Shown: piece after piece, positions 9,016 through 22,215 of the stretch | How positions within the stretch are numbered: position 1 is the stretch's first letter | Layout of the letters: every line of letters starts with the position of its first letter | From: Acidobacteriota bacterium | Lineage (GTDB): Bacteria; Acidobacteriota; Terriglobia; Acidiferrales; UBA7541 | Direction of reading: 5' to 3' | Assembly: GCA_003224525.1 (NCBI GenBank) | Contig: QHZB01000189.1 | Coordinates: 1-64,000 of the forward strand | DNA length: 64,000 bases | Notes under the pieces: model-generated | Databases searched by the model: none | Told to the model about the DNA's origin: nothing | Seen by the model: only the letters and a program-made list of their open reading frames with translations | Made by a program: the position numbers and the translations under genes

Positions 9016-10446
9016 CTAGAACATGTTCCAAAGGAACTGGTTGTACACCTCATGGTGATACTGCACCTCGGGAACTTTCACGACTGTTCCAAGAGCCCGC
9101 GGGCACCGGTCGGCAGCAGCGCGCTTCAGATCAGCATAGCGAGCCTTGACGTCAGCCCCGAAGAGCGCGGTGGTCCAGTCAGCCTTCTCGAAATTTTCCA
9201 GAGCGGTGTAGATGTTGTCCGGGAGGTAGCGCTGCGCGGAGCGTAGACTCTTGATCTTGGCGATCTCGCCGTCGAGGCCGGTCTTGAAGATGGAATACAT
9301 GACCATGTAGGGGTTTGAGTCGGGGGCAACGGCGCGCACTTCCGTGCGCATGCTCTTCTCGTTGCCGATGGGGATGCGTACCATGGCGCCGCGGTTGACC
9401 GCCGAAGCATTGAGCTGGTTGGGCGCCTCGAAGTGCGGGTCGAGCCGGCGGTACGCATTGACGCTGGAGTTGATCAGCAAACAGATATCGTTGCCGTGGC
9501 TAAGAATGCGATCCACGAACTCCCAACCGAATTTGCTGAGTTTCTCCTCGCCCTTGGGATCCCAGAAGACGTTCTTGTTGTCCTTGCTGACAGAAACGTT
9601 GGTGTGCATGCCGTTGCCGTTGACCCCGACGACGGGCTTGGGCAGGAAGCACGCCGTGAACCCCATGTTGGTGGCCACCTGGCGGCAAATCAGCTTGTAA
9701 AGCTGGATCTGGTCGGCCGCGGAGACCACTTCGCCGTACCCATAGTTGATTTCGAATTGCGAGGGCGCGACTTCCGGGTGATCTTTCTCGTTCTGGAAAG
9801 CCATGGCCCGTTGGACCTCGGCGGTGGTGTCAATAAATGTGCGGAGCGGATCGCCGGGGAGAGAGTGGTAGTAACCGCCGGTATTGACGTATTCGAATTT
9901 GCCGGTTTCGTTGTAACTCCGCTCCGCGTTCTGGCCTTTAAAAAGGAATCCTTCAATTTCATTGGCGGCGTTGAGCGTGTAGCCCTTCTTCTCGTGCAGA
10001 TTGTCGGCGTAGCCCTTCAGAACTCCGCGAATGTCGGCGGCGTAAGGCGAACCGTCCTTGTCGATCACGTGGCCGAAGACAAGGACCTTGCCGGATCCAA
10101 ACACATCCGAAGGCGCCCAATAAAATGAGCCCCAATCCATCGCCAGCCGCAGGTCGCTTTCGCGTTGCGCGGTAAATCCGCGGATCGAGGAGCCGTCGAA
10201 CGTCAGGTTGTCCCAGCTCTTGATCAGAAATTTCTTGTCGTAATCAAGCATGTGCAGGCGACCTTCGAGATCACTGAACAGCACCGTCACGGCCTTGATC
10301 CGCTTTTCCTCCGTCAAATATTTAATGCGCTCTTCCTGAATTTTGTGCGCGGCAACTCGTTTCTGACGCTGCTCCTTGGCTTTCAGATTCAACTGCTCCA
10401 GCTCGTCATAGGATAGGGAAAGAAAGTTACGCAGTTCGTTCGACAT
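9016..10446 (-). CDS. Glutamine synthetase family protein
   Basis: Ammonia assimilation enzyme of the GS-I fold, 476 residues. The N-terminal beta-grasp region has the signature FDGSSIRGF. Catalytic-domain motifs include NEIEGFLF (metal-binding Glu residues), HEVAPSQFEINYG-like spacing and KPVVGVNGNGMHTN. I see no clear adenylylation-site loop of the enterobacterial type, so control by adenylylation is doubtful. The ATG is preceded by GAGGAG four bases upstream, which favours it over a longer frame. Substrate identity (glutamate versus another gamma-glutamyl acceptor) cannot be settled by reading. The interrupted host tRNA-Glu lies just upstream. Confidence 0.9.
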   Translation of the reverse strand: MSNELRNFLSLSYDELEQLNLKAKEQRQKRVAAHKIQEERIKYLTEEKRIKAVTVLFSDLEGRLHMLDYDKKFLIKSWDNLTFDGSSIRGFTAQRESDLRLAMDWGSFYWAPSDVFGSGKVLVFGHVIDKDGSPYAADIRGVLKGYADNLHEKKGYTLNAANEIEGFLFKGQNAERSYNETGKFEYVNTGGYYHSLPGDPLRTFIDTTAEVQRAMAFQNEKDHPEVAPSQFEINYGYGEVVSAADQIQLYKLICRQVATNMGFTACFLPKPVVGVNGNGMHTNVSVSKDNKNVFWDPKGEEKLSKFGWEFVDRILSHGNDICLLINSSVNAYRRLDPHFEAPNQLNASAVNRGAMVRIPIGNEKSMRTEVRAVAPDSNPYMVMYSIFKTGLDGEIAKIKSLRSAQRYLPDNIYTALENFEKADWTTALFGADVKARYADLKRAAADRCPRALGTVVKVPEVQYHHEVYNQFLWNMF

Positions 10447-10553: not shown

Positions 10554-10774
10554 TCGAAAGACCCAATGCAAAGAATCAAAGAAATTGCATTTGACTCCGT
10601 CCGGTTCGGCCCGAAGGCGCGCCAATGCAACGATGCGTGCTGCGCAAGCACGACCCTATCTCGGGGGCGCTTTCTCCGCCGCAGGCGCGAACAGCTCCTC
10701 TACCTGCAAGATTGGAAGATGATGCAGTCCTGTGCGACTGCAGACCAAAGGTGAATGAAAACATCAGGCAGAAC

Positions 10775-10821
10775 TGGTAGCGCTACCGGGAATCGAACCC
10801 GTATTTTAGCCTTGAGAGGGC
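10775..10821 (-). pseudogene. 3' half of interrupted host tRNA-Glu(CTC), left attachment site
   Basis: From 5' to 3' on the minus strand it contains the anticodon loop CTCTCAA, the 3' anticodon stem GGCTA, a T-arm (ACGGG TTCGATT CCCGG), the acceptor strand TAGCGCT, discriminator A and an encoded CCA. No matching 5' half adjoins it. The missing half (anticodon stem TAGCC, a perfect partner for GGCTA) is found 9.3 kb away. The T-stem has one A-G mismatch, possibly decay after disruption. The shared core with the other end is GCCCTCTCA. Confidence 0.85.
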
Positions 10822-10838
10822 GGAATCGAGGAAACCGG

Positions 10839-12008
10839 ATGCTACAACACGAGATTAGCGAAGGGTTTCTGCGGAAGGTAGGCCGGAACTACTTCATGAT
10901 TCTGACGATTGACGGCCAGCGCCAACAGCGTCGAACAGGCACGGCTGTTGAAGTCAAGGCAGCGGAAATGCTGGAGGACTGGAAGGCTCAAGCCAAGTCT
11001 GGCGTGGTGGAAGAGGCCCGGCTGCGTTACGAAGCGATGCGGGACGAGTACATTCAGAAAGGTGGTAAACAGGTTCAAGAGAGCATCCTGCGCGATCTGA
11101 ATATGTTCTTCAAGAACATCCGCATAAGCGCCATCACAGTCAAGAAGCTTGATGAGTTTCGCACCTGGCGGGAGAGCCTGGCGCAGGTTGTTGAATACCG
11201 GAACGAAACCCTGGCAAAGGAAATATCCCTACGCATTCAGAAAGCGACCAGCAACGGGCGGAAGAAACTTTCGCCGGGCCAAAAGGAAAAGATCGAAGAA
11301 GAGGCAACGACCTGGGTTGACAACGGCGTGAAGGCCACAACCAATCGCCGCTTGACCGTTCTCCGTGCCATGTTCAACTTTCTTGTGAAGCGTGGCACGA
11401 TTCAGAAAACTGATGTTCCTTCGTTCCCTATCGCAAACAATGTTGACAACAAGCGCCGAGGCTACCTCGACAAAGAGGACATGGACAAGCTTCTCAAAAT
11501 CCTCCCCGGATACCTCCACCCGTTCGTGCGCTTTCTTTATGCAACAGGCATGCGTTCCGGCCAGGCTTCACAACTAACCTGGGATATGGTCGATGCGAAG
11601 GTCACGGAACTGCACGTCCCTGGTGAACTCACTAAGAACGGTGAAGACTTCACTCTTCCACTCATGTATCGCGACGGTATGCCGATGTTTGATTTCGTAA
11701 CGGACTTGAAAAAATCTGTGCGTCAACCGCACGAGCCGATCTTCGATACAACTGACTTTCGTGGCCAGTGGCGTCAAGCTTGCGCAAAATTAGGACTTGG
11801 AATCGACAATCCTGAAACCCAGGTCTATCGCGGGTTGCGTCCTCATGATTTCGGTCGCACGGCATGCCGCAACATGATTAAAGCGGGTATCCCTCAAGCA
11901 GTCGCAATGGCGATCTCGGGACACAAAACTGATAGCATGTTCCGTCGCTACGCCATCATGGACAAGAGCGCCGTACAGGAAGCGTTCGAAGTTCTCGCTA
12001 GCAAGTGA
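10839..12008 (+). CDS. Tyrosine recombinase (integrase)
   Basis: Site-specific recombinase of 389 residues, expected to integrate and excise the element. The N-terminal arm- and core-binding regions are followed by the catalytic domain, with Arg in ATGMRSGQASQLTW, HDFGRT (H-x2-R), SGHKT and the nucleophile in RRYAIMDK. An insertion rich in charged residues (about 130-175) lies in the core-binding domain. The ATG is preceded by GAGGAAA. A longer frame exists upstream but reads through the tRNA remnant and is unlikely to be translated. The gene lies 18 bp inside the left attachment core and is followed after 15 bp by the element's tRNA. Confidence 0.92.
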   Translation: MLQHEISEGFLRKVGRNYFMILTIDGQRQQRRTGTAVEVKAAEMLEDWKAQAKSGVVEEARLRYEAMRDEYIQKGGKQVQESILRDLNMFFKNIRISAITVKKLDEFRTWRESLAQVVEYRNETLAKEISLRIQKATSNGRKKLSPGQKEKIEEEATTWVDNGVKATTNRRLTVLRAMFNFLVKRGTIQKTDVPSFPIANNVDNKRRGYLDKEDMDKLLKILPGYLHPFVRFLYATGMRSGQASQLTWDMVDAKVTELHVPGELTKNGEDFTLPLMYRDGMPMFDFVTDLKKSVRQPHEPIFDTTDFRGQWRQACAKLGLGIDNPETQVYRGLRPHDFGRTACRNMIKAGIPQAVAMAISGHKTDSMFRRYAIMDKSAVQEAFEVLASK

Positions 12009-12014
12009 TAGAAT
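11985..12014 (+). promoter_or_regulatory. Candidate promoter for the element-borne tRNA
   Basis: TTCGAA, 18 bases and then TAGAAT lie across the integrase 3' end; the -10-like box ends 9 bases before the mature tRNA 5' end. The -35 match is weak. Cotranscription with the integrase is the alternative. Confidence 0.3.
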
Positions 12015-12023
12015 CTATATCGA

Positions 12024-12098
12024 GGCCCGGTAGTGTAATCGGTTTAACACGTTGCCCTCTCAAGGCAAAGATTACGGGTTCGATTCCCGTCCGGGCTA
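12024..12098 (+). tRNA. tRNA-Glu (anticodon CTC), carried by the element
   Basis: Folds as a complete cloverleaf: acceptor GGCCCGG / CCGGGCT (one G-U), D-stem GTGT / ACAC, anticodon stem TTGCC / GGCAA with loop CTCTCAA (anticodon CTC), T-arm ACGGG TTCGATT CCCGT and discriminator A. CCA is not encoded, whereas the interrupted host copy encodes CCA, so the two have different origins. It would read GAG codons. It lies inside the element that destroys a host tRNA-Glu(CTC), and so may replace it. Confidence 0.93.
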
Positions 12099-12106
12099 CT
12101 AAACTT

Positions 12107-12349
12107 TCAAGCGGCCTTCTGCACACGGCTATCTACGAACGCTTCCAAATCAGCACGACGCATGAGGTACGGCTTCTGGTTCACGATGGGCAGATGCTTG
12201 GCGTGAATCGCTTGACGTAGCGCCCACACACTGTACCCCGTATACTTCGATGCACCTTTTAGATCAAAACTATATGCTGGCGGCTGCGGCTCTGGCGCAG
12301 GCACGAGTTGCGGCGCTGGATTCGAGTATTTCTTCTTGGGGCGAGGCAT
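12107..12349 (-). CDS. Excisionase-like helix-turn-helix protein
   Basis: Small DNA-binding protein of 80 residues. A basic, Pro-rich N-terminus (MPRPKKKYSNPAPQ) is followed by an HTH_17/Xis-like winged helix (LKGASKYTGYSVWALRQAIHAK, then a wing region ending in RRADLEAFVDSRV). It lies convergent to the integrase and tRNA, a normal position for a recombination directionality factor. A longer frame upstream is possible, but the internal ATG begins a typical domain architecture. Whether it acts in excision or in transcription is inferred from family only. Confidence 0.7.
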   Translation of the reverse strand: MPRPKKKYSNPAPQLVPAPEPQPPAYSFDLKGASKYTGYSVWALRQAIHAKHLPIVNQKPYLMRRADLEAFVDSRVQKAA

Positions 12350-12429
12350 TACGCCACCGCCTGGGTAATGGAGGGAATAACTGTGGGGACGCGGGCATTC
12401 TTTACAGCCATAGCGCAACCTTTTTGAGA

Positions 12430-12963
12430 TTGACTTATGGTCTGAGTTTGCCGATTGCTCCACCTATCGAATTCTCGGGCACCGTCAATGTGAACACCAC
12501 TCCAACAAGCCCGGTTTATGTCGATGCCGATCGACCCGCTCGTAACAGTTTCAGCGCGTCGTGCTTTACCAACAACTACGACTCGAACAGCGGCCAGGCT
12601 TCCTGTACGATTTTCACGATTCCGGCACGCCGCCAAGTCGTGGTCGAGAGTGTTTCTTGTACAGCAGAAGTTGCCGCCGGGCAGGGACCGGCACAGGCCG
12701 ACTTGATCATTCCGAACATTCCCTATGGCTCCGGCCCGGGGTCCGGAGTAATCGCCTACCAGTTTCCCCTGGCAATGACCAAGCAAACGCTGAATACAGG
12801 GACAGGCGCGGACATCTGGGCTATAACGAATCAGTTCCGTGCCTACGGTCGGGCACCCTCCGATGGCAGCGTAGATATCGGAGTATTCTTCCGCGCGTCT
12901 TTGCCGAATCTAAACCCGCCTCAGGGGATGAATTGCACAATCGCTGGGTACGTGGTGCCTTAG
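12430..12963 (+). CDS. Hypothetical protein, possibly the C-terminal part of a larger secreted protein
   Basis: The frame has a convincing protein-like body (EFSGTVNVNTTPTSPVYVDAD, then SASCFTNNYDSNSGQASCTIF, ending MNCTIAGYVVP). This resembles C-terminal parts of acidobacterial proteins rich in TVNV repeats. There is no good start: the upstream frame overlaps the HTH gene on the other strand, and the TTG used here has no ribosome site. Cys pairs suggest extracytoplasmic disulphides. It is either a truncated remnant or a short gene with a non-standard start. Confidence 0.4.
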   Translation: MTYGLSLPIAPPIEFSGTVNVNTTPTSPVYVDADRPARNSFSASCFTNNYDSNSGQASCTIFTIPARRQVVVESVSCTAEVAAGQGPAQADLIIPNIPYGSGPGSGVIAYQFPLAMTKQTLNTGTGADIWAITNQFRAYGRAPSDGSVDIGVFFRASLPNLNPPQGMNCTIAGYVVP

Positions 12964-12987
12964 AAGGCCGACTGCAGCCACTCTATT

Positions 12988-13149
12988 ATGCCCCACCTTT
13001 CGACCTGCACGGAGGGTGGGGCAACTCGCCCCCTCATTGCAGGGGCGAACTGGTCGGCATCCATCAAGGACGCGAGGGGGTTTCCCAATGCGGGTCAGAC
13101 GCTATATCTGTGTGCGAGTACGATGGACGCCACGGGAGCCGCAGGATAA
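12988..13149 (+). CDS. Small hypothetical ORF (53 aa)
   Basis: An ATG frame of 53 residues lies just after the preceding frame, with a coherent C-terminus (GANWSASIKDARGFPNAGQ, then LYLCASTMDATGAAG). It looks like the tail of a conserved family rather than random coding. No clear ribosome site is visible. It may be a fragment of the same decayed region. About 110 bp without a recognisable gene follow. Confidence 0.3.
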   Translation: MPHLSTCTEGGATRPLIAGANWSASIKDARGFPNAGQTLYLCASTMDATGAAG

Positions 13150-13260
13150 TCCTCACAGCCGACTCCGACGTGATAAATTTTGCCAACGGTAAACTGGTCC
13201 GACGCGAATGAGTGCTCACAGTCTGGTGATTTCGGATGCAGAATCAAATTCCGTGGATAA

Positions 13261-13455
13261 TTAATGGGACCGTCTGCGCGCATCGCGCCGAATTTCCAGT
13301 ACGCGCTCAATATCCCTTTCTCGAATCATAACCTTCGCACCGTGTCTCACCCTTGGTAACAAGATACCTTCGAGGCACAGCCATCGCTTGAGCGTGTGCC
13401 GCCCCACTCCGATTCTCCGCGCGGCCTCGCTAAGTGAGTAGTGTTTTTCCAGCAT
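13261..13455 (-). CDS. Small HTH DNA-binding protein (excisionase/MerR-like)
   Basis: Protein of 64 residues, almost entirely one winged HTH (YSLSEAARRIGVGRHTLKRW, wing LPRVRHGAKVMIRERDIERV). It is probably a transcription or recombination directionality factor of the element. GGAGG 8 nt upstream supports the ATG used here; an upstream in-frame GTG is nearer the ribosome site and less likely. It follows the ribbon-helix-helix gene closely on the same strand, so the two are probably an operon. Confidence 0.7.
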   Translation of the reverse strand: MLEKHYSLSEAARRIGVGRHTLKRWLCLEGILLPRVRHGAKVMIRERDIERVLEIRRDARRRSH

Positions 13456-13469
13456 CACCCCCACCTCCG

Positions 13470-13640
13470 CTACCGTTTATGCCGTTCAATGTATTCGCGC
13501 AGCGCCGCACAGAGAATCTGTGTCATAGTCCCATCTTCGCTTTTAGCAATAGCATTAATCCTCTTGTAGACCGCGAAATCCACACGAGCGGAAAGCACTG
13601 CCATCTTGCGTTGCGTAACGGGCTTGCGCTTGCGACCCAC
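13470..13640 (-). CDS. Small ribbon-helix-helix-like protein
   Basis: Protein of 56 residues with a basic N-terminus and a pattern typical of CopG/Arc folds (MAVLSARVDFAVYKRINAIA followed by two short helices ending in ALREYIERHKR). The GTG start is preceded by GAGGAG. It is probably a DNA-binding regulator of element functions; a lone antitoxin is possible but no toxin partner is adjacent, since the downstream gene encodes an HTH protein. Confidence 0.6.
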   Translation of the reverse strand: MGRKRKPVTQRKMAVLSARVDFAVYKRINAIAKSEDGTMTQILCAALREYIERHKR

Positions 13641-13816
13641 GGCGCTCCTCAAATCGCTTGATGTGTTAGCAGCGATCCAACGCATTTGCAAGTCAGTTTT
13701 ACACTTATTTCTAACTGTATCCCGTTCTGTTGCCCGTGCTCAACGTAAGCCCAACAGAATCAGAATATGCGTAGAATCAAGCATTCTACTCGATAGGACG
13801 TTTACCGCTCGCGTTG

Positions 13817-13997
13817 CTAAGAGTCTTTTGTCGAAAATGAATTCACAATCGTAGGCCATCGCGCATCGATTCGTTCGAGGATGAACACAGCATCTTCGAT
13901 GGCACGGTCCACGAAAAACCCCTTTGCCATATTCGACTTGTCCGGGTCCAGGTCGATGAGCCGCCAACAGAATGGCGAACTTCCGCTCCTCTGTCAT
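13817..13997 (-). pseudogene. Remnant of a small conserved hypothetical gene
   Basis: The start reads MTEERKFAILLAA, after which the coding sense shifts to another frame (LIDLDPDKSNMAKGFFVDRA, IEDAVFILERIDARWPT) and stops at TAG. Both halves look like real protein and together would make one short helical protein. A frameshift separates them. I know no function. Confidence 0.4.
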
Positions 13998-14099
13998 TTC
14001 ACGGGCCTAATCGAATACCCCCTTTACGAAATGCGCAATCATCCGGTCGCGAGCGATTGACTCCCTCTTGTACCTCTCACTTATCATTTGGACGTGAAA

Positions 14100-14471
14100 A
14101 TGCCACCTCGCTTCCCCCGCGCATCCTTTAGCCGAGAAGAGTATCTCCGGATGCCATCTGACCGCCAGAGAAACCAGAAGCGGACCCCTGCTGCCGTGGC
14201 TCTACAGGTCTCAAGTGCGGCGCAACCGTTCATCACAGAATTGGCGTTTACTGAAAACGTCAGCTTGCACGGCGTCCGCGTGGTAACGGGGCGTGCGTGG
14301 AAACGAGCAGAGCGCGTGATTGTGAAGTCTTACAACGGCAGCGTCCAATCACGGGCAACGGTAATTTATTGTCATCATTTGGCGAAGGCACGCTACGCCG
14401 TTGGGTTGGAGCTACATTCACCGGTGGGGACATGGGCGGACACTTCGCAACCTCCAAGAGTGGAAGTATAG
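14100..14471 (+). CDS. Stand-alone PilZ-domain protein
   Basis: Protein of 123 residues whose core is a PilZ domain with both c-di-GMP signatures: RxxxR (RNQKR) and NxSxxG (NVSLHG), then ARYAVGLEL near the end of the barrel. It is probably a cytosolic c-di-GMP receptor acting on an unknown partner. Two further PilZ genes lie 2-3 kb downstream on the other strand. The ATG is chosen over a TTG four codons earlier; neither has a strong ribosome site. Confidence 0.7.
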   Translation: MPPRFPRASFSREEYLRMPSDRQRNQKRTPAAVALQVSSAAQPFITELAFTENVSLHGVRVVTGRAWKRAERVIVKSYNGSVQSRATVIYCHHLAKARYAVGLELHSPVGTWADTSQPPRVEV

Positions 14472-14528
14472 CTCAGCATCTCCAAAGTCTTGTGCAGGAT
14501 GCTTACCTCAGTGGCAACTCTTTGAGGT

Positions 14529-15011
14529 CTAATTTTCCGGTTGATAGGTGGAGGTCTTTTCCGCAGAGGGGGCTTGCTGAAGCTCGTCATTATTGCTGCG
14601 GCTCGAATGGCACTGGGGACATCTCCACAGCCGGAAGCTCCTCTGCGCAGGCAGAACCTCAGCAAGGTACATGGGCAGCCCATCTTGCGAACACCAGACC
14701 TCCGGCGTCATGTCTGGGTCGACCCCATTCCCGTTGTGCACGACGGCGAAGTATCCGCGTGAGCTGTTGTAATGGACGAGGCAATCAGGCTCCGGACAGG
14801 CGTACACAAGAGTCTGCTCTGGCTCGCTCCCGCTTTGCAGAGGAACTTGGGTTAGCCTCATCTCAAGATGATGCTCGTAACAGAGCGGTTGAAGCGCCTT
14901 GTTCCTTTGCAGAGCTGACACACGGTGTGTTCCGAAACACATTAGAAGGGACTTCTCTGAGGGCTTCTGGGCTAGGGAGGCAGATTGCATCGCGCCAGTA
15001 TCTTTTTTCAT
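14529..15011 (-). CDS. Hypothetical protein with Cys pairs (possible zinc binding)
   Basis: Protein of 160 residues, not recognised. Cys/His residues are spaced as in zinc ribbons (CYEHH, CPEPDC and CPQCH near the C-terminus). A good ribosome site (GAGGTGA) lies four bases before the ATG. The composition is ordinary and there is no signal peptide or membrane helix. It sits among element cargo genes. Confidence 0.6.
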   Translation of the reverse strand: MKKDTGAMQSASLAQKPSEKSLLMCFGTHRVSALQRNKALQPLCYEHHLEMRLTQVPLQSGSEPEQTLVYACPEPDCLVHYNSSRGYFAVVHNGNGVDPDMTPEVWCSQDGLPMYLAEVLPAQRSFRLWRCPQCHSSRSNNDELQQAPSAEKTSTYQPEN

Positions 15012-15177
15012 GAATCACCTCGGAGTGCGGATTGATCCAGCTTCGGAATTGAGGTGATGGCAAACGACCTGCCAGTCCAGAAGTTGAGGAATCTTATTGA
15101 AAGAATTAGAGATAAGGAATCTTAGGTAGTAAGCCTCTGCTGCAGATTTTTTGCGCAATATGAAGAAATTACAAGTT

Positions 15178-15609
15178 CTAGTACCCGGCACCTACGACCT
15201 CCATGTGCCCTTCGATGTATGAGTCAGGTCGAAGCCGTGATTCATACCGGACCAAAATGCGGGTACCTTCACGACTGACGAGCATCCACATACCATGCAT
15301 ATATCCGAGCTTTTGAAATAAACCAAAGACAGTTGGAATGTCGTTTGTATTCGGCGCAGTCAGGTCATCGTATCGCATGCCAACCAGTTCTTCACGTTGA
15401 TACCCAACAAGTTGGCAGAAACTGTCCGAAACTTCGACATACCTCCTGTCGCCGTCTACCACCGTAACGTACTGAGGCTCCACTTCAAATTGCGGGGCTT
15501 CCAATTCTTGGCGAAGTGTTTTAACAATACTCCGCGCCCATTCGGGATACTCTGTCTCGGATTCGTAGTGAGTAACGCGAGGTGGAGTATACGGTTTCCT
15601 TTTTGACAT
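15178..15609 (-). CDS. PAS-domain protein
   Basis: Single-domain protein of 143 residues. After a charged N-terminus comes a PAS fold (VTVVDGDRRYVEVSDSFCQLVGY, then EELVGMRYDDLT and VRYESRLRPD). No output domain follows, so it would act through a partner or as a ligand sensor. The ATG has GGAGG about 12 bases upstream; an upstream TTG gives 12 more residues. It lies near three PilZ proteins, suggesting but not proving a signalling link. Confidence 0.65.
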   Translation of the reverse strand: MSKRKPYTPPRVTHYESETEYPEWARSIVKTLRQELEAPQFEVEPQYVTVVDGDRRYVEVSDSFCQLVGYQREELVGMRYDDLTAPNTNDIPTVFGLFQKLGYMHGMWMLVSREGTRILVRYESRLRPDSYIEGHMEVVGAGY

Positions 15610-15737
15610 TTCAGCGGATGCCTCCGTATACGCCCTAAGATACAAGCGTTGCGCTTTTGTAACGCACTGCGAGAACGCCTGCTTGGGAAACCAATCAAGA
15701 CTCCCTTTAACTCATGTGGGGTGGATTTCTACACCCG

Positions 15738-16150
15738 CCCGGCTGGTGGTACACTTGTTTCAAACTTCAATGTCCATTCTATGATCTGCTCATGCTCCCG
15801 AAGCACGTCCACAAATTTGGCATCGAGCCAGGTCTTGTTTCGAATCTCGACTGCAAACTTGCACGTGAACATTGGTTGCAACTGCTTTAGAAAGAAGCGC
15901 AGACGGGGGAGGAATTCATTGGCGCTCTTGAACGCGTAGTTGTTGAAATACGGAATTGTAGAAGCAATGGCCCAAGCTTATCGTCAAGTAGGTCCATCCG
16001 GGTGATGAACTCGTCAAACTCCTCTTCACAGTCCACCAGCACTTTATCGTTGCGTCACAACTCTCGGGACTTTGGCGGCGAATACAAAATCGGGAGGAGT
16101 CTTCTCGTACCATCCGGTCACTGTCGAAACCGAGGGCGTCCGATAAGACG
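15738..16150 (-). pseudogene. Decayed DUF72 (YecE-like) gene
   Basis: Pieces of one DUF72 protein can be read in order but in different frames: TVTGWYEKTPPDFVFAAKVP, then KVLVDCEEEFDEF and LLDDKLGPLLLQF, then YFNNYAFKSANEFLPRLRFF, and FAVEIRNKTWLDAKFVDVLR. At least two frameshifts and a missing C-terminus make it non-functional. It shows that parts of the element are degenerating. Confidence 0.7.
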
Positions 16151-16194
16151 AACTATCCATTTCAACCGTTGCAAATTGGGTCAGGTTACATTCC

Positions 16195-16464
16195 CTATGC
16201 GGCTACTTCCACTCCAATAGCGAAGACGCCGCTCTCCTTGCGCTGGCAGTAAGCGACCCTTCCTTCAAACTGAACGCCATTCCGGGGTAAAGTAACCAGG
16301 ACACGAGTCCCAGGCTGCCAACACCGCGCCGTGGTAACGCGTGCGCCGTGAGGACTCACGTTCTCAGTGACCGTCTTTTCCTTTTGCACAGATTCTTTTG
16401 AAAGCGAAACCTCTGCGTCCCATATCTGTTGGATACGCCTTTCGGATCGACCGTTTGCAGCCAT
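16195..16464 (-). CDS. Stand-alone PilZ-domain protein
   Basis: Protein of 89 residues from the internal ATG chosen here (131 if the upstream ATG is used). It has RxxxR (RSERR) and NxSxxG (NVSPHG) c-di-GMP motifs, then a barrel (VLVTLPRNGVQFEGRVAYC, GVFAIGVEV). It shares the segment TVTENVSPHGARV with the next PilZ gene, so the two arose by duplication. Neither start has a strong ribosome site. Confidence 0.65.
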   Translation of the reverse strand: MAANGRSERRIQQIWDAEVSLSKESVQKEKTVTENVSPHGARVTTARCWQPGTRVLVTLPRNGVQFEGRVAYCQRKESGVFAIGVEVAA

Positions 16465-16790
16465 TTTGACACCCGATTGATTTTCGGTGTTGTCAGTCCT
16501 ACACGTATAGAGTGCCTGTTCTGTGGCTCTCTCTCTCTCCGAAGCCTCCCGAGGGGGGCCGGATGACCTCACGAGAATAATTCTTGGCATCTAATAATAA
16601 TTAACAAGAAGGCGAATCCCGGAAATCGAACACGGTAGATACCCTAGCGGGGCGTCCGGAAAGCCTAAACGGCTTGGTTTCAAGGCGGTACCAGAATTGA
16701 GGAGTCCACGACGGTACGAGACCACGACAGGGGCACAACATACGATTAACTTTCTTTACCGCCTCTGCGCGAGGTCTAACTCTTCCTGCT

Positions 16791-17087
16791 TTAAGCTATG
16801 GAGTAATTCTCCCATTTGACCGAACGATCCGCGAATTCTACGCCCACAGAAAAGCGATTCCCTGTTTTTGGCAAACAATAAGTCACTGTTCCGACTTGCA
16901 GAAATTCTCCCGTTAAAGGAGTAACGAGTGAACCTTCACCGGGTCGCCAGGACCGCCTGCTGACTACACGCGCACCGTGGGGACTGACGTTTTCCGTAAC
17001 CGTTCGTTCACGGACGCGGGGTTCTCCCCAGCTTGCGAGGTAGACGGGAACTGAGGTAGGAAAACGTTCTTCAATTCTAACCATCAT
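16791..17087 (-). CDS. Stand-alone PilZ-domain protein
   Basis: Protein of 98 residues, essentially a bare PilZ domain. The RxxxR motif (RIEER) is at the N-terminus, NxSxxG (NVSPHG) in the middle, and VGTVTYCLP and RFSVGVEF follow. Two ATG codons stand in tandem at the start. It is probably a c-di-GMP-binding adaptor. About 330 bp separate it from the PilZ gene downstream on the same strand, so an operon is uncertain. Confidence 0.68.
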   Translation of the reverse strand: MMVRIEERFPTSVPVYLASWGEPRVRERTVTENVSPHGARVVSRRSWRPGEGSLVTPLTGEFLQVGTVTYCLPKTGNRFSVGVEFADRSVKWENYSIA

Positions 17088-17420
17088 GGAAATGTCTTTT
17101 ATTGGTATCCGGTCTTTGGCGATGGGCAGAACCGTTCATCATTTGCCCCTTCGATAAGGAGAGGAGTCCCCACAGCGCGCCCTTTAAGCTAACAAATAGC
17201 TTCCCATCACCCATCGAGCGGTCAATCGGCAAAAGACCCTAATTGCTGTTCGGGTAATTCCCTGAGTATCTGACAAGGGGCTCGTTATCAGATTCAATCG
17301 ATACTCCGAGATATGGTATTGCGTAAGATTCTGGACCATCTGGATGGAAAGAGTACCCCCCCGTGTCAGAGGAGTACCGAGGAGCCTGTAAGACAACTCG
17401 TCAAAACTCGACGCCACACG
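17088..17420. other. Stretch without a supported gene
   Basis: Only short overlapping frames are present and none has a domain, ribosome site or coding-like composition. It probably holds the promoter of the PilZ gene to its left and the 3' end region of the secreted-protein gene to its right. Confidence 0.5.
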
Positions 17421-17885
17421 CTAATTCTTCGAGAGAAGTCGGAACTGTGCGCTGTGGGCACCCTGATAATCCTGGTATACGCGTGTACTCACGGTTTCAT
17501 AGAGGTCGTTGTGCTGATAAAGCAAAAGCCCGGGGAATTGCCTGGCAATTGCTTTGAAAATCGAACTGAAGAGCTTTCCCCGTGCATCGTAAGCGGCTTG
17601 GTTTTTGTATTCCGTCAACAACACAATGTTCGGGTCGGTTTCCGAGGTACTTTGTTCTGCGATGCGGTGATAGCTCAGAACGGCACCCTGGCGCCTGGCT
17701 TCCTCGCGGATGCGCATCCAGTTGTCGTCCAAGTAGCCGAGCGTTGGACCGAACTTTCCAGGCATTACTTTAAGGATTTCCATCGTCCAGACCGGCTTTT
17801 CGCTTTCCGAAGGGCTTTGCGCTCCTCCACCGGAGACGATGAATAGAGAGACAAGAAAAAGGCCTGCGAACATACGTCTTTGCAT
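17421..17885 (-). CDS. Secreted small protein, NIPSNAP/EthD-like ferredoxin-fold
   Basis: Protein of 154 residues with a clear signal peptide (MQRRMFAGLFLVSLFIVSGG, cut near AQS). The mature part (VWTMEILKVMPGKFGPTLGY, then NIVLLTEYKNQAAYDARGKL) resembles dimeric alpha-beta barrels. A strong ribosome site (GGGGAGGT) lies seven bases upstream and rules out the longer frame. Function is unknown. It is cargo of the element. Confidence 0.7.
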   Translation of the reverse strand: MQRRMFAGLFLVSLFIVSGGGAQSPSESEKPVWTMEILKVMPGKFGPTLGYLDDNWMRIREEARRQGAVLSYHRIAEQSTSETDPNIVLLTEYKNQAAYDARGKLFSSIFKAIARQFPGLLLYQHNDLYETVSTRVYQDYQGAHSAQFRLLSKN

Positions 17886-18156
17886 GGCTGCACCTCCCCG
17901 TCTGTTCAGACGCACTCCAAGGGCAAAAGGATATCCCAGAATCAAGGCGAAACAGTTGACTAAAGTCGCGAAACCGGACAAAGTCCCCAGTCCGCTTTCC
18001 CGCTGGATTCCACGACGATTACGGCTTTAGAACGAGGCCGCCCAGGGAGTGTGAGCGCCACCAGCTTTCCCATGTCAAACAGTAGACCTATCCATCTCGG
18101 CATAACCTTAACACGATGCCCCGTGAACGTGAGACTATACCGGGCCGGAGGAATTC

Positions 18157-18402
18157 ATGAACATTTTGGCGGCTTTGAGACGGGAAGAAACGAAGCTACA
18201 AAAGCATGCGGATAAGGTGCGGCAACAGTTGAACGCCGTTCGTGCAGCGAGGAAGATTCTAGGCCGTGAAGGAGCAAGCAGCGGTAAACGCATTGGCAGG
18301 AAAAGACGCAAGATGTCTGCGGCTGCCAGAGCGAAGATTGGAAAGGCGACGAAAGCGCGGTGGGCAAAGTTTAGAGCAGCGAAGGCGAAGGGGAAACACT
18401 AG
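18157..18402 (+). CDS. Small highly basic protein
   Basis: Protein of 81 residues. The N-terminal half is a charged helix (NILAALRREETKLQKHADKV) and the C-terminus is a Lys/Arg/Ala-rich tail (RKRRKMSAAARAKIGKATKA). This suggests nucleic-acid binding, as in nucleoid-associated proteins. The ribosome site GGAGG is six bases from the ATG. No specific family was recognised. Confidence 0.65.
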   Translation: MNILAALRREETKLQKHADKVRQQLNAVRAARKILGREGASSGKRIGRKRRKMSAAARAKIGKATKARWAKFRAAKAKGKH

Positions 18403-18424
18403 AGCCGTCGGGGGCGGGTACAAG

Positions 18425-19020
18425 TTGAGCAAGAATGATGAATTCATTGCTTCCCTTTTTCTTGTTATGACGTTCGTTATCACGTCCTCGCCAGCCCATG
18501 CACTACGCTCACAGTTTGTGAGGTTGCTATTTAAGCGTTCAAAGTTACAGGGGATTGCCGCCACGGTCCTCGCCGGATTATTACTAGCCAACGGATGCGG
18601 TGGGGGCGGGGCAGCACCAATTCAAGTGCCTCCTTCGCTACCAGATATCAGCGGAACGTATCTGCTTAACTTTGGCACAGGCCCAAGCGGTGCACTGGCG
18701 ATTGCGAGCCTAACGGTCACGCTCAACCAAACCGAATGGCTCAATGGAATCAACACCCTGAGCATATCGTCAGGCCAACTGCTGTCTGGATGCCCTGGGG
18801 CTACCAATCAGACCATAACCATCGCCGCACACCTGGAATGGAACGGCCAGCAAGAAAGTTTGTGCTGTCCATAGATACGTCGGCGGGACAAAACATTCTC
18901 ACGATGACCGACGATAACTTTGTTGCGCCGTACTCTGGCGCGTGGACGCCGGGGTCAGCATTCCCGCCGTGCAATGGTCAGGTAGCGCCCCCATTTTCTT
19001 GGACCGGAGTCAAACGATAG
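18425..19020 (+). pseudogene. Frameshifted lipoprotein gene
   Basis: The first frame has a hydrophobic stretch with a lipobox-like site (LLLANGC, then a Gly run) and a beta-rich body (DISGTYLLNFGTGPSGALAI). It shifts near 18850, after HLEWNGQQ. The second frame continues naturally (KFVLSIDTSAGQNILTMTDD, then PCNGQVAPPFSWTGVKR). A single indel would restore one lipoprotein of about 195 residues. It could be real decay or a sequencing error. The start is uncertain (TTG here, ATG at 18467 possible). Confidence 0.55.
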
Positions 19021-19171
19021 GGAGACTGCGGAAGTCTCCCAACCTGCAACCGTGCAAGAAGTTCCGCAAAGTGACAGCCGCGAGATTCGTTGAGCACCTG
19101 AACGAAGGAAAGTGCGAGCAGTGTTTGGCGTTCTTTCGCATGTTGGCTAGGAGAATGTTGGCTCCGAGAAA

Positions 19172-19237
19172 AGGTGCTCTAAAAGAGTGATGAACACCGG
19201 GTTTTCGCTGAACCCGGCATTCTCTTTCGGAGCACCT
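19172..19237. repeat. Extended inverted repeat / hairpin
   Basis: An outer 8-bp pair (AGGTGCTC / GAGCACCT), a middle pair (AAAGAG / CTCTTT) and an inner 7-bp pair (CCGGGTT / AACCCGG) are nested over 66 bases. This is too elaborate for a simple terminator and lacks a T-run. It may be an RNA structure, a REP-like sequence or an end of the adjacent decayed insertion sequence. Confidence 0.5.
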
Positions 19238-19286
19238 AAAAATGACATCTTGTTGTATACCACAACTCCCATTTTCCTTCTACTAG

Positions 19287-19893
19287 CATCGAGCCATTCG
19301 AGCCGATTTTTCTGGTGGACAGATCACCAGCGACGCCGGCCTGCTGCCGCTGCGGGCCTTCGATGAGCGCCATCATCTGACCCGCGATTGGGCCGCGCTT
19401 CTAGATGACCCGCGCCGGGCGGAGAGCGTCGATCACGACGCGATGGCGTTGTTGCGGCAACGCATCTACCAAATCGTGGCCGGCTATGAGGACGCCAACG
19501 ATTCCGACCGCTTGCGCCATGATCCCGCCTTGCAAATCGTCGCCGATCAGAAACTGGGAGAGCCGCTCGGCTCGCAACCTACTTTCAGCCGCTGGGAAAA
19601 CGCATCTTCCGCGCGCAGCCTGGTACATCTGAACGATGCGCTCTTGGATCAGTTCATTCGTCTCTGTGGCCGGCAGGTCCGCCAGCGCGGCGAGATTTTG
19701 CTGGACATCGATTCCACCGACGATCCGACGCACGGCCAGCAGCAATTCAGTTTCTTCAACGGCGCCTACGACCAGCACATGTACCATCCCATGCTGATTT
19801 TCGAGCGTCACACCGGATGCTTGCTGAGCGTGCGTTTGCGACCGGGCAATGCTTCCAGTCACGCCCGCATCGTGCCCATGTTGCTGCTATCAA
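19287..19893 (+). pseudogene. Truncated IS1380-family transposase
   Basis: An in-frame stretch of about 200 residues with IS1380 transposase sequence: ADFSGGQITSDAGLLPLRAF, RIYQIVAGYEDANDSDRLRH, then GEILLDIDSTDDPTHGQQQF, which includes the first DDE aspartate. The 5' end is cut by a stop just before homology begins. The homology ends near ARIVPML, so the rest of the normally 400-plus-residue enzyme is missing. It cannot transpose itself. It lies close to the right end of the element. Confidence 0.75.
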
Positions 19894-19970
19894 GGAAGGC
19901 ATTAGGAAGGCGAAGTCTGCAAAGGCGTAGCAACGAGGAGCGGGGGCGTATAACAAACGTGTATAACCAA

Positions 19971-20001
19971 GGGCTGGGACTGGTTCCCAGCCTTTTGCTT
20001 T
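19971..20001 (+). terminator. Rho-independent terminator
   Basis: A perfect 8-bp stem (GGCTGGGA / TCCCAGCC) with a 5-nt loop is followed by TTTTGCTTTT. It would stop transcription running rightward towards the attachment site and the host tRNA fragment. Confidence 0.75.
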
Positions 20002-20002
20002 T

Positions 20003-20029
20003 AGGTGCAAATTGCACCCCGATTGCACC
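20003..20029. repeat. Cluster of TTGCACC heptamers near the right end
   Basis: GGTGCAA is followed by two copies of TTGCACC(C) within 27 bases: one inverted pair and one direct pair. They lie about 100 bp inside the right attachment core, where integrase arm-type binding sites are often found. The role is inferred from position only. Confidence 0.4.
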
Positions 20030-20131
20030 CGAAGGGCATCTTCTGGCATCTGCTGTGACCTCCTGAATGCTCAGTAAACCGCTGATTCTATTGCTAAGTG
20101 CCGCATTTACAGTAGGTGACCTGATTCAGGC

Positions 20132-20168
20132 TGAGAGGGCTACGTCCTAACCCCTAGACGATATCGCC
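20132..20168 (-). pseudogene. 5' half of interrupted host tRNA-Glu(CTC), right attachment site
   Basis: On the minus strand: acceptor strand GGCGATA, TC, D-arm (GTCT AGGGGTTA GGAC), G, anticodon 5' stem TAGCC and loop CTCTCA. The next base diverges from a tRNA and no T-arm follows. Joined to the 3' half at the far end of the element it gives a full cloverleaf with a perfect anticodon stem. The acceptor stem then has one A-G mismatch and one G-U pair. Confidence 0.85.
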
Positions 20169-22125: not shown

Positions 22126-22215
22126 AGTCAGAATAGGGGTAGGGAGAATCGCAAAGGATTCCCCCTCCCTCCGAACCGGACAGGCGGGTCACCCGCATCC
22201 GGCTCTCCAGCCCTT
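22126..22215. repeat. Structured inverted-repeat block, possibly a group II intron remnant
   Basis: Two hairpins lie back to back: GAATC / GATTC flanked by pyrimidine-rich repeats, and a nested CCGGA-GCGGGT / ACCCGC-TCCGG stem. Read on the minus strand, the order (GAGCCGGATGCGGG, GTCCGGTTCGGAGG, then a purine/pyrimidine hairpin) recalls the RNA sequence flanking group II intron reverse transcriptases. No reverse transcriptase is present. The likeness is from memory. Confidence 0.3.

Follow-up and report, generated by a model that had tools for sequence, protein, structure and literature searches.

Genomic islands that split host tRNA-Glu genes and carry anticodon-matched tRNAs in an uncultured genus of Acidobacteriota

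In this article, I describe a genomic island from an uncultured soil genus of Acidobacteriota that very probably destroys the tRNA-Glu(CTC) gene of its host upon integration and brings along a tRNA of its own that takes over. The island lies in a 64-kb window, the whole stretch of DNA that was analyzed, from a genome designated G000 (all coordinates given without a contig label refer to this window), and a total of ten such integrations turned up among eight genomes of the genus. Of these, seven are at Glu-CTC (G000, G023, G433, G018, G016, G014 and G438) and three at Glu-TTC (G015, G018 and G016). A sequence-only reading of the window had proposed that the element tRNA rescues the host from the disruption that the element causes, and this idea is now strongly supported, as that tRNA is the only intact CTC copy found and the same architecture occurs in relatives.

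The element spans positions 10,822-20,140 (9.3 kb, including one core copy) and lies between two parts of a single host tRNA gene, its 3′ half and its 5′ half. The 3′ half (10,775-10,821, minus strand), which forms one attachment junction, matches the intact tRNA of relatives at the same locus by 91-94% and sits upstream of the adjoining host glutamine synthetase gene (9,019-10,446, minus strand); five genomes of the same genus (G022, G012, G013, G008 and G011) possess an intact tRNA-Glu(CTC) at exactly this position, and none of these five gave an integrase match. The 5′ half (20,132-20,168, minus strand), which marks the second junction and the far end of the element, was missed by the earlier reader and was located here, on the same contig as the 3′ half, by searching G000 with the intact G022 locus. 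Both junctions contain the core GCCCTCTCA (10,813-10,821, minus strand, on the integrase side and 20,132-20,140 in the 5′ half), which at 9 bp is the longest exact match between them and is part of the anticodon arm, anticodon included. Since the junctions share this 9-bp core only, the host gene is not rebuilt, and with a core too short to rebuild it, integration therefore destroys the host tRNA-Glu(CTC). Bare core hits in G436, G437, G024 (C144) and G017 (C76) were rejected as chance matches with no tRNA half around them.

Inside the element, a complete tRNA-Glu(CTC) is called on the plus strand by both ARAGORN and Rfam (12,024-12,098, or 12,099 depending on the call), with an Rfam score of 71.4 bits compared to a gathering score of 29 bits. 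The integrase stop codon TGA occupies 12,006-12,008, leaving a gap of 15 bp before the tRNA, and the 3′ end of the tRNA reads ...GGGCTACTAAAC / CTACTAAAC with CCA not encoded, so this tRNA needs the CCA-adding enzyme. Its acceptor, D and anticodon stems differ from those of the host-type tRNA-Glu(CTC), and a search of phage tRNAs returned full-length matches at only ~77%. A putative extended -10 promoter, TGATAGAAT (12,006-12,014, plus strand), was recognized by sequence comparison; it overlaps the integrase stop codon, ends 9 bp before the tRNA and has similar counterparts in G023 and at the G018 CTC locus, which suggests that the tRNA may be expressed independently. What the sequence-only reading had observed at this locus is confirmed: a complete tRNA of the same anticodon lies 15 bp behind the integrase, it lacks an encoded CCA, it is unlike the host copy, and the host tRNA-Glu(CTC) is disrupted.

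The G000 assembly is 98% complete, in 516 contigs and with 2.8% contamination, and its tRNA inventory combines a family search with ARAGORN on the fetched loci (a first-look search scored 150 of 285 candidates). The genome-wide search gave 50 matches, 49 of them identified by ARAGORN and one a fragment without identification, and the tRNA-Glu genes among these matches are one TTC (contig C110) and one CTC, the element's own. A Glu-CTC pattern search of G000 likewise returned the element tRNA and the broken half only, and the count of tRNA-Glu genes on which the rescue idea had been staked thus turned up no other intact CTC copy in G000. All genomes compared here appear to be fragmented assemblies, and a second copy may have escaped assembly, in G000 as in the others. 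In the full inventory of G018 (50 matches, 97% complete), the only Glu tRNAs are the two carried by elements, and a search for another intact TTC gene in G015, G016 and G018 found none.

The integrase is a tyrosine recombinase of 389 aa when read from the likely ATG (10,839-12,008, plus strand; the longest open reading frame starts at 10,755), with profile matches to PF00589 (E 1.2e-16) and to the phrog_1 integrase (2.7e-38); a PDB sequence search with it gave no match. The arginine of the HxxR motif in tyrosine recombinases is catalytic. In the G000 protein, a GGT codon (11,853-11,855, plus strand) places glycine at this position, giving HDFGR compared to HDFRR in relatives according to the alignment and the motif table of relatives, an assignment based on the HxxR motif of those relatives together with what is generally known about tyrosine recombinases. 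The G000 integrase is probably inactive through this loss (one sequencing error could mimic the change), and because its integrase has lost the catalytic arginine, the G000 element is probably locked in and would be unable to excise by itself.

Together the integrase and tRNA form a module that ends at the tRNA 3′ end (10,824-12,099, plus strand) and is 87% identical over 1,276 bp to the G023 sequence; this stretch from core to tRNA end is the only part of the G000 element alignable to the G023 sequence that was compared, and no cargo common to the two was detected by alignment. The tRNA of G433 and the few bases preceding it are 90% identical to G000 while the integrases are only 32% alike, and this disparity suggests either strong constraint on the tRNA or tRNA exchange. 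The remainder of the G000 element encodes small HTH proteins, three PilZ-type proteins, one PAS protein and a truncated transposase: a possible excisionase with a weak HTH_17 match below the curated cut-off (12,107-12,349, minus), an HTH_17/MerR-like possible excisionase or regulator above the cut-off (13,261-13,464, minus), a PilZ-like protein just under the cut-off (14,088-14,471, plus), a PAS-domain protein (15,178-15,645, minus), a PilZ protein (16,195-16,590, minus), a PilZ-like protein also encoded beside the G433 element (16,791-17,087, minus) and the truncated DDE transposase (19,443-20,066, plus). The PilZ-type gene common to the cargo of these two otherwise unlike elements shows 77% DNA identity (window 16,810-17,039; L148 1-227, G433 C131). 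No phage structural genes were recognized on the element, and a PHROGs scan of 8 element ORFs matched only the integrase and the transposase. About 2 kb outside the element, the window also contains a Group II intron catalytic domain (Rfam RF00029, 51.7 bits, 22,133-22,207, minus strand).

The same arrangement recurs across the genus. In G023, G433 and G018, a tRNA-Glu(CTC) lies 11-16 bp after an integrase (92%, 32% and 41% identical to that of G000, respectively, the last with five stops) and is accompanied by a split host gene; G023 and G433 show, at the same locus as G000, the host-gene 3′ half followed by the integrase and then the tRNA 11-15 bp behind it, and the host CTC gene of G018 is split between contigs C98 and C40. 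The pairing first noticed in a single window is accordingly present in other genomes, where the homologous integrases do carry the tRNA. G016, G014 and G438 possess an eroded host half (short as well in G014 and G016) and an integrase in fragments (22 residues in G014) together with a complete tRNA-Glu(CTC). At the Glu-TTC target, the host 3′ half lies upstream of the integrase in G015 and G018 and is followed by a flank that shows synteny to the intact TTC locus in G000, with the upstream host flank of G015 found beyond a stretch of ~3.9 kb, and G016 carries the same rescue-type TTC tRNA beside a decayed host half, for which no integrase was found. For G433, G023, G014, G016, G438 and G018-TTC, one junction was found. 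The most similar integrases with different targets, those of G433 (CTC) and G018 (TTC), are ~61% identical and each is paired with the matching tRNA. In 10/10 cases the carried tRNA has the anticodon of the broken gene, whose identity where the half is eroded is given by position upstream of glutamine synthetase (CTC in G014 and G016) or by sequence similarity (G016-TTC), and in 10/10 cases the element tRNA is the only copy found.

Now considering how these modules age, the integrases are damaged or gone in seven of the ten cases and the tRNAs are intact in all ten. The integrase appears intact in G023, G433 and G018-TTC; the damage elsewhere comprises the catalytic missense change in G000, five stops in G018-CTC and a frameshift in G015-TTC, and only fragments persist in G016-CTC, G014-CTC and G438-CTC. 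Nine of the ten rescue tRNAs are distinct in sequence (75-78 nt), with G016-TTC being the same as G018-TTC, and these nine have standard pairs in 189/189 cells over 21 cloverleaf pairs, and double-sided changes occur in 14 of these 21 pairs, a count reached in 0/500 shuffles. The earlier suggestion that the element tRNA would be an addiction-like trait gains indirect support from this comparison, in which integrases decay and rescue tRNAs do not, and the hosts seem by now to depend on their replacement tRNAs.

A tree of 92 integrases places those of the Glu cases in a supported clade of 20 (SH-aLRT 100), in which a codirectional tRNA lies behind 16 and a convergent tRNA at none, whereas elsewhere in the phylum the convergent arrangement is the common one. 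Within the clade, tRNAs for Thr-CGT, Gln-CTG, Leu-CAG, Met-CAT and Asn-GTT are found in codirectional position as well. The broader proposal that every codirectional integrase-tRNA pair is a rescue was rejected upon flank comparison: adjacency alone is no proof of rescue, because the codirectional Asp, Leu-TAG and Ser tRNAs of other integrases in the genus are simply host genes at their native sites. Rescue is claimed here for the ten Glu cases only, with Thr-CGT, Gln-CTG, Val-CAC and others left out. A scan of IMG/VR with the integrase alone gave no match, and a scan with the integrase alignment gave 22 distant relatives, two of them inside the codirectional clade. These two are on the putative viral contigs L299 (with a codirectional tRNA-Gln(CTG)) and L300 (with a codirectional tRNA-Leu(CAG)). 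G000 itself has an integrase with a codirectional tRNA-Arg(TCG) 20 bp behind (L012, C431) and a truncated integrase with a codirectional tRNA-Met 81 bp behind (L001, C321), both with no split host half seen nearby. At L327 (G464 C1), an integrase has a tRNA-Val(CAC) 5′ half upstream and an intact tRNA-Val(CAC) ~0.9 kb downstream, an arrangement that fits either rescue or ordinary reconstruction, and at L330 (G579 C98), in another genus of the family, the integrase end overlaps a tRNA-Glu(CTC) that is 92% identical to the G018 rescue tRNA.

The mechanism that I envisage is that the integrase would recombine an attP site that precedes the integrase gene with the host gene for tRNA-Glu, within the anticodon arm, splitting that host gene, and that the anticodon-matched tRNA carried by the element, probably from its own promoter, would take over GAG decoding. 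At an early stage, the host would regain its gene if the island excised precisely; after mutation of the integrase or of the host halves, no source but the carried tRNA would be left, and the island would be locked in, at least as far as its tRNA is concerned. Recombination and gene splitting follow from the sequence, and I infer tRNA function, essentiality and a cost of loss: the element tRNA would be expressed, charged and needed, and losing it would reduce host fitness, a cost limited to deletion, imprecise loss or mutated remnants, because precise excision would restore the host gene. On balance, I favor, with some reservation, the wider proposal that a lineage of integrase-tRNA cassettes, each targeting the anticodon itself and each bringing a tRNA of matching anticodon, has on repeated occasions, and irreversibly, taken the place of essential tRNA genes in hosts of a single acidobacterial family, such that excision after mutation of the remnants restores no working gene and all Glu tRNAs found in G018 and G016 are of mobile-element origin.

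Could the window simply contain an ordinary tRNA-targeting island, which rebuilt the host gene at its junction and thereby left an intact tRNA next to the integrase? Rebuilding is the usual rule for islands (PMC4383910), and a native or rebuilt host gene is what the related codirectional Asp, Leu-TAG and Ser pairs represent, but in G000 the host gene has its two halves at other positions (10,775-10,821 and 20,132-20,168) with the 3′ half keeping the host flank, the core is only 9 bp, the intact tRNA belongs to another sequence type in the interior, and in G015 and G018 the flank synteny goes with the remnant. This reading is very improbable, and where the two halves lie is enough to refute it. 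An assembly or binning artefact, with the split gene and foreign tRNA arising from contamination, is scarcely credible: G000 is indeed in 516 contigs with 2.8% contamination, yet a single contig holds the two halves together with the integrase and glutamine synthetase, and the same arrangement recurs in independent genomes.

It is also unlikely that the element tRNA is incidental cargo, a translation bonus or chance acquisition in a host that lives by tRNA-Glu(UUC) reading GAG and has no real dependence on the element. In some bacteria, tRNA-Glu(UUC) is established to read GAG by wobble, and it may do so here, in which case the CTC gene need not be strictly essential; no tRNA-Glu(CTC) was among the listed pattern hits of two genomes, G003 (90% complete) and G437 (84%), which suggests that UUC may read GAG in this genus and that the CTC tRNA may be dispensable. 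Against mere cargo, the anticodon goes with the target, whether CTC or TTC, in 10/10 cases, and the tRNAs persist where the integrase is ruined, with base pairing kept by covariation. For the Glu-TTC target, GAA is readable by no other tRNA, and these three cases provide a stronger argument for essentiality than those at Glu-CTC.

Replacement by an element-borne tRNA is not without precedent. In the tRNA-dependent lysogeny of actinobacteriophages such as Fionnbharth, LeBron and Gaia (Guerrero-Bustamante and Hatfull, 2024; PMC10865867), the core is 8-17 bp, the tRNA is not reconstructed and the phage provides a tRNA of the same isotype; the authors proposed that occurrence beyond actinophages is possible, citing Lj965. 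The G000 element resembles these phages in its tyrosine integrase (PF00589, though with the HxxR arginine lost in this copy), in an attB inside the host tRNA gene with both tRNA-Glu(CTC) halves at the element ends, in a short core without tRNA rebuilding (here the 9-bp GCCCTCTCA) and in an element-borne tRNA of the same isotype (12,024-12,098), and in Gaia the phage tRNA is also downstream of int (PMC10865867). Unlike the actinobacteriophages, it resides in an Acidobacteriota host as an island without recognized phage structural genes, not as a temperate phage forming lysogens; its tRNA family sits 11-16 bp behind the integrase and includes fossils that kept the tRNA after decay of the integrase; and the tRNA requirement, proven with mutants in actinobacteriophages (PMC10865867), is one that I infer here. 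The G000 element works like tRNA-dependent lysogeny but is not a lysogeny system.

Similarly, in the available portion of the report on phage-related sequences of Sinorhizobium meliloti, a replacement tRNA-Leu(UAG) is described (PMC11476347), an isoacceptor of foreign sequence type that is carried by the element and stands in for the host tRNA inactivated by integration, differing from the present case in its target tRNA and phage-like vehicle, and with no series of decayed integrases found in that portion. The Lactobacillus johnsonii prophage Lj965, as far as it is cited in PMC10865867, likewise leaves its junction tRNA unrebuilt and has a cognate tRNA in the prophage, differing as a prophage of a Firmicute. 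Canonical tDNA islands (Islander, PMC4383910) also combine a tyrosine integrase with a tRNA target but restore that target from island sequence, which the G000 element, with only 9 bp in common, does not. Tycheposons, as summarized second-hand in PMC10872708, likewise pair a tyrosine recombinase with a tRNA gene that borders the cargo island; there the tRNA marks the border, whereas the G000 element has its tRNA in the interior and destroys the target.

The principle was known before (PMC10865867); what differs here is the host phylum, the lack of a recognizable phage and the decay series. The question raised in 2024 of occurrence beyond actinophages now has a clear and repeated case in another phylum, on an island that is not a recognizable phage, and the aftermath is visible as well, since integrase genes decay, the remnants of the host gene wear away and the host ends up with the mobile tRNA as its own. 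If true, the wider proposal would represent a general route for bacteria to swap essential tRNA genes as well as a tRNA-based addiction trait, and tRNA gene turnover and toxin-free dependence on a mobile element become testable from sequence.
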